64,000 bases of DNA from Tubulanus polymorphus (taxonomy: Eukaryota; Nemertea; Palaeonemertea; Tubulaniformes; Tubulanidae). Where the stretch lies: contig NC_134028.1 in the NCBI RefSeq assembly GCF_964204645.1, forward strand, positions 9,713,001 through 9,777,000, read 5' to 3'. Both the position numbers and the translations under genes were made by a program. Positions 57,071-61,730 of this stretch are shown piece after piece (position 1 is the stretch's first letter; each line of letters starts with the position of its first letter). The notes below the pieces were generated by a model. That model was given only the letters and a program-made list of their open reading frames with translations, searched no databases and was not told where the DNA came from.

Positions 57071-60000
57071 TCAATGATATACGTCTTCTTTATCAGCTAT
57101 ATACTGAATAACATCGGCAGGTTTTAGAAGACGTTCGGCGTCATTATCCGGGATCTCAAATCCTACAAATAAAGAGAATTCGAATATTCCCATTAAAATC
57201 CATTCATATATTACAACAGGCCTTGATAAGATTTGAACCAGGACACAATTCTAGAGTTCTTGGTTAAAATTGAACTGAACCACCAGTTGAATTATTGGAA
57301 ATGAACCAATTTTAACTTTCATCAAGTCACACTTAAAACAAAGAACTATGGAACTCATTCATCATCACATTGCAAAAAAAAATACAAAATCCTGCTGCGG
57401 ACTCCTACTGTAAACTCTGCCTAAGTCGGATCCAGTCGAGTCGTATAACCGCTCAACTCGGTGCAATAAAAAAAAAATCTTCAGTTTCCTTTATAAAGTA
57501 ATGCTTTCGTATTCATCTAAGCCGTAGCCGGTCAAGTCGGATATCGCCTATCTCGTAGCAATATCTACGGTCGTTGTTTGGACTGTGATCTCAATTATGT
57601 TTGAATATCTGCCTAGGAAGTAAATTTCTACCTTTCAAAATCCTACGCAAGCACGCAGTTAAATTTCACAACTTACCGAATTCGTCTTCCATGGCCATTA
57701 TCACTTCCACTGTATCTAAACTATCTAAGCCCAAATCGTTGATAAAATGAGAGTCAACTGTCAACTATGAAAAAAGAAAAACAGCGAAGAGTTCAGTAAA
57801 GATTTCACCAATGCGTGTGATTTTTCTAGATAAGAATACAGCCTTTCATCTGAACACAGCTTAACAGCTAAGAGTACGTCACCAAGAAGTTTACAGTTTG
57901 AATACGGTTCCACTCATGTACTGCGCAAAAATATTCCAAACCTCCAACTAAACCCATATTATGCCACCTCCTCGATCGAACATTAAAATCCCCACTCAGA
58001 ATCAGGGGTGGATACTCCCGACCATTCCGCTTATGAATGTCCAATAACGGAAAGGAAAACAATATTTTTCTCATCCCCTGCTGCCCAAGTGCCGACGTAC
58101 TACATGAACAGGCTTAAATTAATTTCATGTGAGACTTATTTCACTAATTCAGGTATCAACCTGCAGTCTGAACCCACCCCTTGTTTCTATTTCTAACGAA
58201 AACTGTCTAGCGTTAGTAGCCAATTTTCGAAATGTCTGATGACCAGAATCAAATTTCTTCAGAGGGGTGGGTTTATACGGCACATTGATACCAGCAAAAT
58301 AGGGGATATCGACAAATTACCCGTTTGATGGCGCTAGTCAGAACCAGAAATTGAAACCTAAATCCACCATGCCCTAGTACATTTGCAATGAAAATCTCTC
58401 GCTTCAAGTTTTCAATGAGCGATATTTTACTTACTATATATCGTCATGCGTAATCCTTTAAATATGTTATCCTACCGCTACGTTGGATATGATAAAACCT
58501 CACTCCAAAGGCTAACTAGAAAACTTCAAACATCACTCTCATACATCACTCTGAACAGCACTCTCATACATCGGCGGCGCGCGCGTGTTAGCCTTGTACA
58601 TCAGACAAATTAATCCGCAAAGTATAATGAAATCCATGTCATAATTAAAGAAAAACTGCCTTCTAGAAAGCGGTTACCGTATATAAGCGACTGAACTTGT
58701 CAAACTGATCACTTCAGCACTGTGGCTAGTAACAACCAATCATAGCTTGTTTCCCATAATTACATCAAAAGCGCTGGCATTCCCAAAACAACCAATCAGA
58801 GCGTGGGTTTTCCATAATCACGTTAGCGCGCTCGACATAGCAGTGCCGTGCCATCAATATGAGCCATAGTCTAGCTATAATCTTTCAAGGAATTCAGTCA
58901 ATTTTTTACATCAAATGATGGAAATATTGGAAAGCGCAATAAACTTGATCTAACATTCAATAGTACAAATAAGTTGTATACTGTGAAAAGTGTAGACATT
59001 ATGTTGTTACGGAGAAAACTAAACGGCAAGAATTTGACTGACCTAGGAGACAACATGACGTCATTTGAACAGGATAACAAAGTGGTCGTTCACTACGTGA
59101 ATCACTACGCATGTCCTAAAATTATCAAAAAACATTTTGCAACAGCTGACGATGTAAAGACTGTTTGGGAGGTATCACATGGTGGCACCACTTGACAGCC
59201 CAATTTCGATTGTTGGTTTGAGTCCTGGTACTTTTCATATTTCTATTATGAATCTACGAGTTTAGTCCTTCTAAAATCAATTTTATTTCATAATATTATT
59301 TCATATTTATCAGTGTAGCGTGCAATAAATTCACCCTAGAGTCTTGAACTCATGAACTAAGTGATGACACCCGGCACCAGTCTTCACTTCCGTTAGCTGC
59401 TTCGAGCGTCATCGCTAAATTTGTGATTTTTGGTAGTTTTTTGATATTTCTAGTGACCTTTAGCGTTCAAAGTGAGGTTTTATCCAATTCAACACATTGT
59501 CAGGATATCATACTTATAGGAGCCTATACTTAAAGCGTGCCTATGTATAGTAAGTAAAATATTGCTAACTAAAAACTTTTTATTGCAAATGAACTAGAAC
59601 ATGGCGGATATAGGTTTCAATTTCCGGTTCTGACTAGCGCCATCAAACGAGTAATTCCAGAACTTTAATTTGTCGATATCCCATATACTGTACTTAACAA
59701 ACATTTTCAATACAAGCTTAACTAAAATTATGCACTAAAATTCGGAAGAATTTCAGACTCGAGAACAACATCGGGCAATAAATATCTGAAAACCTATATC
59801 CATTTTCAAATTTTTGATTTGGTACCTTTTCGGGGTTGACTTTATCGTACAATTTCAGAACAAGCAAAACGCGTTCTCTGATCATTTCTAACGTTAATGG
59901 AACATGGCTGTAATTTCGAACACCTAACAGCGAACCAACAACTCGATTCAGCTGAAATTACACAATTCAGAATGAATGAATGAATACCTTTCCGGAATCA

Positions 60001-61730
60001 ATTTTATCGTAGTCGCTGACAACTTTCATCACTCGTTTTTCGATATCAGATTTTGTCAGTTTTGAACTCGCCGTTGAACTATAAGGCCGCCGCGTTGTTG
60101 ATTTGATCGTTAACTTTGGCTGAAATATATTTGCGAATAAAATCGTAAACACCGAAACGCCGCTGCAGAGAGGTCCTCATTCAAGATTTCTCAGCGGCTA
60201 TTTAGGGTTTGATATTATGTTGGACGTGTTTCAATACATTATGAACCCAAGTCCGGTTCCACTCCACAGTTGTGAGTTAAAGAGGTAAATCTAGGGACAA
60301 AATTAGTTGATTTTCAGTGAGTTTTCTCGGGGTCAAGAGTCAAGAGTGAAGACAAATCTTTAACAGGAGGAAAAATTTGCTTTCAGACGGCAACACTAGG
60401 TCAAGTAACATCATACCAACACCTGTTACAAGTATTCCCCTTATATATACACGCATGTAACGGGATGTCCTATAAATGACACCACTCAGCAGTTGTAAGA
60501 CGTTTGTTGACCTAGTGTTGCCGTCTGAACGCCTGTCAAGTTTTTCCTATGAGGCCTACGCCTTGTCGCTAGTGACGTCAGCTGTCCTGATATTTGCGGG
60601 TAGATTTAAGCCTTGCGGAGATAGGAGCGTTGTCTGCCCTTCTGTGTAGTTTAGATAGACGAGGGGCGAACATTGCATCATGGGTAAAACAGTTGAATCA
60701 TGGATAATTAAATGGCGACCCCGGTGGAGTTTTTATCATAGATTACGGTAACTTTAATCATTTTTAAAGCACAAACAAGGTCAAAGGCCATATTCAAGTG
60801 CCTGTTGTTAGTTAGTGTTGTATCAGAAAACGCAGTGGATATTTTACCGTATACGGCTGAGCATTTATTTCCGCTATTTTACCGCACATCGTCGCTGATT
60901 GGCTGATTTACATCGCGCATGCGAACAGAGGAGCGCGACAAAATTCAAGGAAAGTGTGGAGAACAGTCAGAGAAAATAGAGCGCCAATAGAGCGATACTC
61001 GAACCCGGGCCAGTAAATTACTAGTGCAGCGTCATACCGCTAGACCATCGAGCTCGCTGAAAACCAACCAAATGTTTTAACTATCTATTGTACCTAACCC
61101 TACCCTAATCCGATCCCTAGAGGTAAAACGGAACCCTCTGGACCCTCTTACCCTCTCGACACTAACCCAATCGAAACCCTCACATTAAACCCAATATAAT
61201 GATTTTATGTTTCTTTTATTAGTTAACACTATATATATAGCAATAATATACGGTAAAATAGTGCAAGTAAATACTTTGCCGTAAGTATACGGTTAAAAAT
61301 CCTCTTCGATCAGAAAAAGGAATTTTTTTCACACTGTCACAGAAAGCAAAAATACAATCTATAGAATAGTGAATGTATCTGATGTCGTAAGAGGAATATT
61401 CACGTTTGAAACCTTGCTTGATGATTTAAAAATTTAAACAACATTGTGTGTGTGCGTGGACATGTCATGGTGACCAACCAAACTGGACACTCCGGACGGA
61501 AGCCCAGGCGGCTGGGTTGAATTGAAGGTCACACGAAATGTTTCATTTTTCAAGTGAATAATTACCTTATTGTCACGGATTATTGTGCTATAATTTTGGT
61601 TTGTTTGAAGTGCCTTACTATTCTGTTGCTGTTGAACAGCTACAGCGGCAATTCTAGGCAGCGCACTGCGAACAGCAGCGCAATTTACAGCCGGTTGAAT
61701 GGCACGTAACGCACGCAGAATGGCAGCCAT
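57071..61730 (-). CDS. NDUFAB1: NDUFAB1, mitochondrial acyl carrier protein / complex I subunit
   Basis: Mitochondrial ACP carries acyl chains on 4'-phosphopantetheine in type II fatty acid synthesis, binds LYR proteins for Fe-S cluster work, and is a complex I subunit. Exons in transcript order: 61730-61566, then either 60119-59988 (2a) or 59951-59826 (2b), then 57764-57677 and 57162-57071 (TGA). The protein has 156 aa with 2b (same as human) or 158 with 2a. Exon 1 is a transit peptide ([15 protein letters not shown], many Arg/Ala, no acid near the start). The 57764 exon carries the prosthetic-group serine in DLGLDSLD and [10 protein letters not shown]. The last exon gives [15 protein letters not shown] and ends KEDVYH. 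Phases are 0, 0 and 1. The ATG at 61730 has a strong context (caacATGG) and is preferred to an in-frame ATG 42 bases upstream. A minus-strand AATAAA lies at 57047-57042. Confidence 0.95.
58303..59682. mobile_element. 1.4-kb element with ~145-bp inverted ends in NDUFAB1 intron
   Basis: Ends gggatatcgacaaattaccc and, mirrored, gggatatcgacaaattaaag. The shared arms run over gtttgatggcgctagtcaga, accagaaattgaaacctaaa and further to about 58445/59548. The inner part includes CG-rich words (cggcggcgcgcgcgtg) and a 73-codon frame at 58974-59195 without a recognisable family. Type unknown. It lies between exon 2b and the serine exon. Confidence 0.65.
59826..59951 (-). CDS. NDUFAB1: NDUFAB1 alternative exon 2b
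   Basis: 126 nt, phase 0 at both ends, acceptor taatttcag and donor gtacct. It encodes [20 protein letters not shown], then [11 protein letters not shown], very close to the vertebrate form (PLTLEGI..RVLYVLKLYDKI). It substitutes for the same protein segment as exon 2a. Only 36 nt separate the two (59952-59987). Confidence 0.9.
59988..60119 (-). CDS. NDUFAB1: NDUFAB1 alternative exon 2a
   Basis: 132 nt, phase 0 at both ends, acceptor atatttcag and donor gtattc. It encodes [10 protein letters not shown], then [20 protein letters not shown], ending IDSGK, that is the mature N-terminus and helix 1 of the ACP fold. It is less like vertebrate NDUFAB1 than exon 2b but keeps the YS..., I..RV and DYDKI positions. 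Confidence 0.85.
60367..60549. mobile_element. MITE in NDUFAB1 intron 1
   Basis: Inverted core agacggcaacactaggtcaa (60385-60404) and its exact mirror (60508-60527), extended outward by ggaggaaaaa / tttttccta. About 180 bp, non-coding. Confidence 0.65.

Follow-up and report, generated by a model that had tools for sequence, protein, structure and literature searches.

The 64,000-nucleotide (nt) stretch of DNA analyzed here, positions 9,713,001 to 9,777,000 of NC_134028.1 from Tubulanus polymorphus (hereafter the window, to whose positions our coordinates refer unless another contig is named), carries on its minus strand NDUFAB1, the gene for the mitochondrial acyl carrier protein (ACP), which is made up of exon 1, two alternative second exons called 2a and 2b, and exons 3 and 4. 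Our best explanation, to which we give a probability of about 0.75, is that 2a and 2b are a working pair of mutually exclusive exons (MXEs) and, less certainly, that 2b serves complex I and 2a the general roles of ACP.

The coding part of exon 1 (61566-61730) contains the start of the coding sequence and the presequence and ends at the donor AAG/GTAATT; an in-frame stop and another in-frame ATG lie close upstream. Exon 2a (59988-60119; 132 nt, 44 codons) ends at the donor AAG/GTATTC and is separated from exon 2b (59826-59951; 126 nt, 42 codons; donor AAG/GTACCA) by a gap of only 36 nt (59952-59987). Exon 3 (57677-57764), with loop 1, the phosphopantetheine site LGLDSLD and helix II, and exon 4 (57071-57162), with the C-terminus and the stop, are common to both forms. 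The junction between exons 3 and 4 is in phase 1 and all ends of 2a and 2b are in phase 0, so that the spliced products are 158 residues long with 2a and 156 with 2b. The coordinates, frames and splice dinucleotides given in a first-pass annotation of this DNA agree with ours to the base. Its view that 2a and 2b are homologous exons for one protein segment also holds: both are in phase 0 at either end, and their peptides are identical at 13 of 34 positions (E 5e-5 in a single pairwise comparison). The two exons thus show the features by which an MXE pair is recognized, since they are tandem, homologous, similar in length, in the same frame at both ends and assigned to the same segment of the protein. 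The locus appears to be the sole mitochondrial ACP gene of the genome. Searched against the 267.8-Mb assembly, the DNA of 2a and 2b is matched once, 2a queried together with exons 3 and 4 gave three matches at E <= 0.1, all within NDUFAB1, and a 2b query gave one; in these searches only the best candidates were scored, and runs of N could conceal sequence. Among the candidates scored, all three queries match here only, and we reject a second NDUFAB1 gene as the source of one of the exons.

A steric mechanism for exclusive use of the two exons is well supported by the anatomy of the gene. The gap contains three perfect matches to the yUnAy motif (TTCAT), whose adenines lie 7, 11 and 15 nt away from the 2a donor and, in the same order, 29, 25 and 21 nt from the end of the gap at the 2b acceptor, as well as weaker branch-point-like motifs such as CTGAA, and the only AG in the gap is the 2b acceptor itself. 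The 2b branch points in the gap are predictions from the motif. Human MXEs are considered sterically exclusive when the distance from donor to branch point is below 50 (PMC5740500), and in OGDH a distance of 25-41 nt enforces exclusion (PMC7969005). The three predicted branch points fall well within a limit of about 50 nt, and any branch point in the gap would, being less than 36 nt from the donor. The gap is also short by the standard of this genome. Using the genes of the CCT chaperonin, we estimated introns from neighboring family matches rather than from mapped splice sites, which gave a range of approximately 71 to 910 nt (n = 25); the estimate used 42 of 53 rows, with 11 isolated rows omitted, and 25 pairs passed the adjacency filter. 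Two isolated CCT rows on contig C31 that are 54 nt apart do not mark a shorter intron, because both lie inside one open frame. The claim that 36 nt is too short to be spliced out is supported, as the gap is far under the approximately 71 nt of the shortest of these 25 estimated introns.

Under the mechanism that we propose, almost the same bases would be needed by the U1 small nuclear ribonucleoprotein (snRNP) at the 2a donor and by the U2 snRNP at the cluster of 2b branch points, which could not coexist there, and a 36-nt intron would be too short for excision, so that each pre-mRNA would take either 2a or 2b and the cell can probably use only one version of the exon at a time. This steric block would be the only visible safeguard: a transcript that included both exons would encode an open protein of 200 residues, and neither the frame nor nonsense-mediated decay would remove it. 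Skipping both leaves an open protein of 114 residues, and retention of the gap between 2a and 2b brings a stop (TGA) after six gap codons. Counted as matches to the U1 consensus, the donors of 2a and 2b reach 5 of 9 each and those of exons 1 and 3 reach 7 of 9, and there are 13 and 12 pyrimidines in the 20 nt before the 2a and 2b acceptors, respectively, vs 17 and 15 before those of exons 3 and 4. Weak sites on both alternatives fit a competition between near-equal sites in which the choice would be open to regulators, and small changes in splicing factors could then tip the balance. The suggestion that no dedicated regulator is needed is not supported as a whole: the steric block would account for the either/or, but not for which exon is chosen, and the weak donors leave room for regulation. 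Each candidate branch point is one unit of a short repeat of ATTC (59952-59987), and variation in the length of this repeat between individuals would alter the number of branch points and the length of the gap, and perhaps the ratio of 2a to 2b.

Both isoforms belong to the ACP family, although this tells little about exon 2 because a form lacking both alternatives also passes the cut-offs. The scores against TIGR00517 (cut-off 70.45 bits) were 81.7 bits with 2a, 76.6 with 2b and 73.1 without exon 2, and those against PF00550 (cut-off 20.8) were 45.0, 44.0 and 39.1; relative to the exon-2-less form, 2a gains 8.6 bits and 2b 3.5 for TIGR00517, and 5.9 and 4.9 for PF00550. The family assignment thus rests mainly on exons 3 and 4. 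The best-scoring PDB chains for both isoforms are mitochondrial ACPs, which we identify by entry as those of fly and mammal. A PF00550 search of the assembly found eight phosphopantetheine-domain matches, exon 3 of NDUFAB1 among them; four others lie in long open frames (250-881 amino acids) over approximately 18 kb (C1:20725260-20743548) and are perhaps animal polyketide synthase genes.

What distinguishes the isoforms is the segment that the alternative exons encode, which comprises the end of the presequence (R-x-Y-S, identified by eye: R-P-Y-S in 2a, R-N-Y-S in 2b), helix I and the start of loop 1. R-x-Y-S is a typical context for presequence processing. The fly ACP in the PDB scores 149 bits against the 2b form and 126 bits against the 2a form, and it aligns with 2b from around R-x-Y-S as far as the start of exon 3, helix I included. 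Using the mature products as queries, we compared the 59 chains present in both lists of the best 60 (of 115 matched by 2a and 109 by 2b), leaving out 2l0q_A, found in the 2a list only, and 9ka7_C, found in the 2b list only. The 2b form outscored the 2a form on all 23 animal chains, by 16-22 bits (mean 20), and the 2a form was ahead on 30 of the 36 non-animal chains, with a mean of 3.5 bits over all 36; the animal, non-animal and species labels are our own assignments, made from scores and names. As a bacterial outgroup we used the best 80 of 310 relatives, of which one (L061), with a stop upstream, was dropped, leaving 79 usable sequences and 76 distinct ACP peptides. The 2a form scored higher than 2b for 47 of these peptides, lower for 24 and the same for 5. 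Judged by record titles, none of the best 80 of the 310 loci was a eukaryotic ACP copy contaminating a bacterial contig. Residues 4 and 8 of the stretch beginning RV are hydrophobic (L/Y and L) in 2b and in the aligned fly and mammal ACPs, and are K and D in 2a. Taken together, 2b has the animal-type helix I and 2a looks closer to the plant, protist and bacterial forms.

In their last 20 residues 2a and 2b are identical at 8 positions, and we used this value as the end point of a simulation in which 2b, as the ancestor, decays to 8/20 identity under one simple mutation model. When the frame was kept open, only 8 of 4000 simulations equaled the similarity of 2a to bacterial ACPs and 40 of 4000 its similarity to three animal ACPs; when decay was unconstrained, a stop was gained in 1536 of 2000. 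A neutrally decaying copy of 2b is thus an unlikely description of 2a, and the simulation speaks for selection on 2a, although it is not proof of its use.

A division of labour between the forms has to be reconciled with what is known of the contacts of ACP. In the NFS1-ISD11-ACP complex, E. coli ACP contacts ISD11 via helix II and one residue of the next loop (PMC5668364). Helix II lies in the shared exon 3, and the exon swap therefore leaves the main contact with LYR proteins unreplaced. The proposal that the exons differ where ACP meets its partners is accordingly only partly right: the swapped segment runs from the last part of the presequence over helix I into loop 1, and this main contact is not part of it. 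In complex I, NDUFAB1-beta is surrounded by NDUFB9, NDUFB2, NDUFB3, NDUFB5 and NDUFB6, and NDUFA6 is reported to be the sole subunit that NDUFAB1-alpha touches once the complex is assembled (PMC8762328). In human cells lacking NDUFAB1, yeast ACP restores growth but not complex I assembly (PMC8762328); because it rescues growth alone, complex I seems to need a feature that yeast ACP does not have. The fly NDUFAB1-alpha approaches NDUFA10 in one state through its C-terminal D146 and D149 (PMC10036122), and the matching residues are in the part common to the 2a and 2b forms. The PDB entries for fly complex I contain a 2b-type chain, in two copies per entry, and the fly structure paper gives "Acyl carrier protein" one identity value for both sites (PMC10036122). 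With the phosphopantetheine serine and helix II common to both isoforms, 2b would yield the animal-type ACP used in complex I and 2a an ACP whose more hydrophilic, generic helix I might be a better fit for mitochondrial fatty acid synthesis, lipoylation or other LYR partners; this part of the explanation is less certain than the splicing.

Several points weigh against this division, and some against the pair as a whole. The 2b form outscores 2a on 6 of the 36 non-animal chains, among them Yarrowia ACPM2 and plant mitochondrial ACP 1. The lead of 2a on bacterial ACPs is modest, and both the bacterial set and the set of solved chains are redundant. Of the 76 bacterial ACPs, 30 have a hydrophobic residue at helix position 4 and 13 have one at position 8, which makes the argument from the surface of helix I a soft one, and we treat that difference as only a hint of function. 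A 2b-type chain in fly complex I does not show that the 2a type is excluded from it. Finally, we know the exon pair here from the DNA of one genome, and constraint on 2a is deduced from similarity and simulation in that genome.

The alternative exons of Drosophila mtacp1 that the first-pass annotation mentioned are real. Tandem mutually exclusive mtacp1 exons are described in Drosophila, Anopheles and Apis (PMC551531), and the pair is strictly conserved in the insects studied (PMC2241641); for vertebrates and nematodes PMC551531 reports no expressed sequence tag (EST) evidence of it. As in NDUFAB1 here, the insect exons belong to the same gene, are tandem and homologous and sit at one place in the protein; they are used one or the other, as we propose for 2a and 2b. 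A difference is that their flanking introns are reported as phase 1, in a numbering for which we found no definition in the source (PMC551531), vs phase 0 here, which means that either the numbering or the position of the introns differs. Ser-99 is given for isoform B, the form used in a fly study (PMC6895606), and the equivalent serine of the fly PDB chain is at 108 in our alignment. If isoform B carries the alternative exon, that exon would be shorter and its product would take phosphopantetheine. The insect alternative exons presumably cover the same protein segment as 2a and 2b. The mutually exclusive exons of insect mtacp1, or ND-ACP (CG9160), were reportedly the subject of Ragone 1999. 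A search by terms found no mention of ACP, an isoform or splicing in a fly complex I paper (PMC9977279), nor of the gene in a paper on insect MXEs (PMC3303723).

A date in the early protostomes, as proposed for the switch, requires homology with the insect pair, and the phase difference and the missing EST evidence in nematodes, which are protostomes, count against it. A serious rival is that convergent exon duplication produced the pairs of lophotrochozoans and insects separately, which is a real possibility at less than even odds. Phase 1 on both sides of the insect exons and the lack of EST evidence in nematodes and vertebrates (PMC551531) speak for it, and there is precedent for convergent MXEs, such as mrp-1 (cited in PMC7434440). 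The phase statement may nevertheless use another numbering, the gene and the tandem two-exon layout are the same, as apparently is the segment (a comparison that did not include the insect exon sequences), and in the case of muscle myosin, nematodes and vertebrates are described as having lost MXEs (PMC3912159).

Another alternative concerns function and would leave the splicing as we describe it. The two forms could be interchangeable, with the pair kept for expression or import (splicing control by tissue, stage or stress) or by drift after an old duplication. Both forms have the R-x-Y-S presequence end, the same active serine and the same helix II, and the pair is apparently dispensable in animals, given the vertebrates and nematodes with no EST evidence of such splicing (PMC551531). 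We nevertheless consider interchangeability rather unlikely, since helix I differs in kind (8 of 20 residues identical), the scores against animal and non-animal ACPs run in opposite directions, and insects are reported to keep both exons strictly (PMC2241641).

It is highly improbable that 2a and 2b are not strictly exclusive, with both or neither sometimes included and the products tolerated. The exon lengths are multiples of three, which keeps the 200- and 114-residue products in frame, and the skipped form still scores above the ACP cut-offs, but the gap is too short by comparison with the estimated introns, the branch-point-like motifs crowd within 15 nt of the 2a donor, and the double product would carry two presequence ends and two helices I. 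Least probable of all is that 2a is an unused relic of duplication, a notion in keeping with its weak donor and with its being known from genomic DNA alone but at odds with its 44 open codons, matching phases and intact splice dinucleotides and with the rarity with which simulated decay reaches its ACP similarity or avoids a stop.

The proposed MXE pair in NDUFAB1 has parallels in other mitochondrial genes. In OGDH, exclusion of exons 4a and 4b is enforced by branch points that lie only 25-41 nt from the upstream donor, but there the branch points are set apart from the acceptor, unlike in NDUFAB1, where the whole gap is 36 nt, and 4a and 4b together are not a multiple of three, whereas the joint product of 2a and 2b is in frame (PMC7969005). 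In the oyster alternative oxidase, a mitochondrial gene of a mollusc, an exon (10) is duplicated and alternatively spliced; unlike 2a and 2b it is a terminal exon, and the second copy is used alone or both are used via an alternative acceptor (PMC5589949). The exons 6a and 6e of coq-2 form an MXE pair in annelids, molluscs and helminths, though in a different enzyme and with a different result, as that pair switches between ubiquinone and rhodoquinone synthesis (PMC7434440). For the ACP exon pair we are aware of no function that has been tested. Outside mitochondrial genes and at other distances, exons 2 and 3 of alpha-tropomyosin are neighboring exons that exclude each other sterically, and exon 17 of Dscam is said to combine steric exclusion with RNA structure.

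In a COQ2-like gene of this genome, two homologous open frames, ITLNWGVLLGWSAV... and MTFNWGALLGWAAV..., lie in tandem at positions ~1570-1710 and ~2660-2800 of locus L099 (C5:20099900-20104600); both end in IYDTIYAHQ and resemble the coq-2 6a/6e pair of rhodoquinone-making animals (PMC7434440). Since at least two mitochondrial genes carry such pairs (the COQ2-like one as open frames), hypoxia is a reasonable setting for a search for use of 2a. Descriptions of rhodoquinone are confined to nematodes, platyhelminths, molluscs and annelids (PMC7434440), and insects have the ACP pair without it, so that hypoxia would not be the whole story. A wider scenario would have 2a keep the general eukaryotic (bacterial-type) helix I and 2b the complex I type, with the splice choice apportioning ACP between complex I and fatty acid synthesis, lipoylation and iron-sulfur (Fe-S) cluster assembly. 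The switch would then be ancient among animals, retained by insects and lophotrochozoans but not by vertebrates, and perhaps operated under hypoxia; taken in its entirety we find this scenario improbable.

An MXE pair of this kind, in this gene, is already known from insects, and what is new is the taxon, the compactness and the non-animal character of 2a; among the papers listed in our searches of an open-access library, none reported alternative NDUFAB1 exons in lophotrochozoans. Complex I, mitochondrial fatty acid synthesis, lipoylation and Fe-S cluster assembly all draw on ACP, and its division among them in the cell is an open question. Two forms of ACP made from one gene by an either/or splice would be a natural experiment on that question, and the sequence suggests a testable split in which a 2b-type helix I serves complex I and a 2a-type helix I the remaining roles. 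The gene would also be a highly compact example of exons that exclude each other sterically, with the donor and the predicted branch points within 15 nt and without a safeguard from frame or decay.

The introns of the gene contain further elements. Intron 2 has a palindromic element (58299-59686) that begins approximately 140 nt past the 2b donor and has arms of 80, 62, 44 and 21 nt that are 74-95% complementary; one of these arms has 40 scored near-identical matches in the genome, itself counted, among 303 candidates. A smaller palindrome (60379-60532), with 38-nt arms that are 87% complementary, lies approximately 260 nt upstream of 2a and is perhaps a miniature inverted-repeat transposable element. 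In intron 1 a tRNA-like stretch (GATGGTCTAGCGGTATGACGC...GGGTTCGAGT; ~61000-61060, minus strand) was seen by eye and is perhaps a short interspersed nuclear element; ARAGORN found no tRNA in the window, and Rfam gave nothing above its gathering scores. A search for COX1 gave no match in the assembly. A fly-type Hox homeodomain query, the results of which we read as those of a lophotrochozoan, gave 38 matches on several contigs, the ten best of which lie within approximately 316 kb on contig C6; among six that we read, one has KLNGP soon after the homeodomain, near to the Lox5 signature, and two others resemble Lox4 and Lox2.

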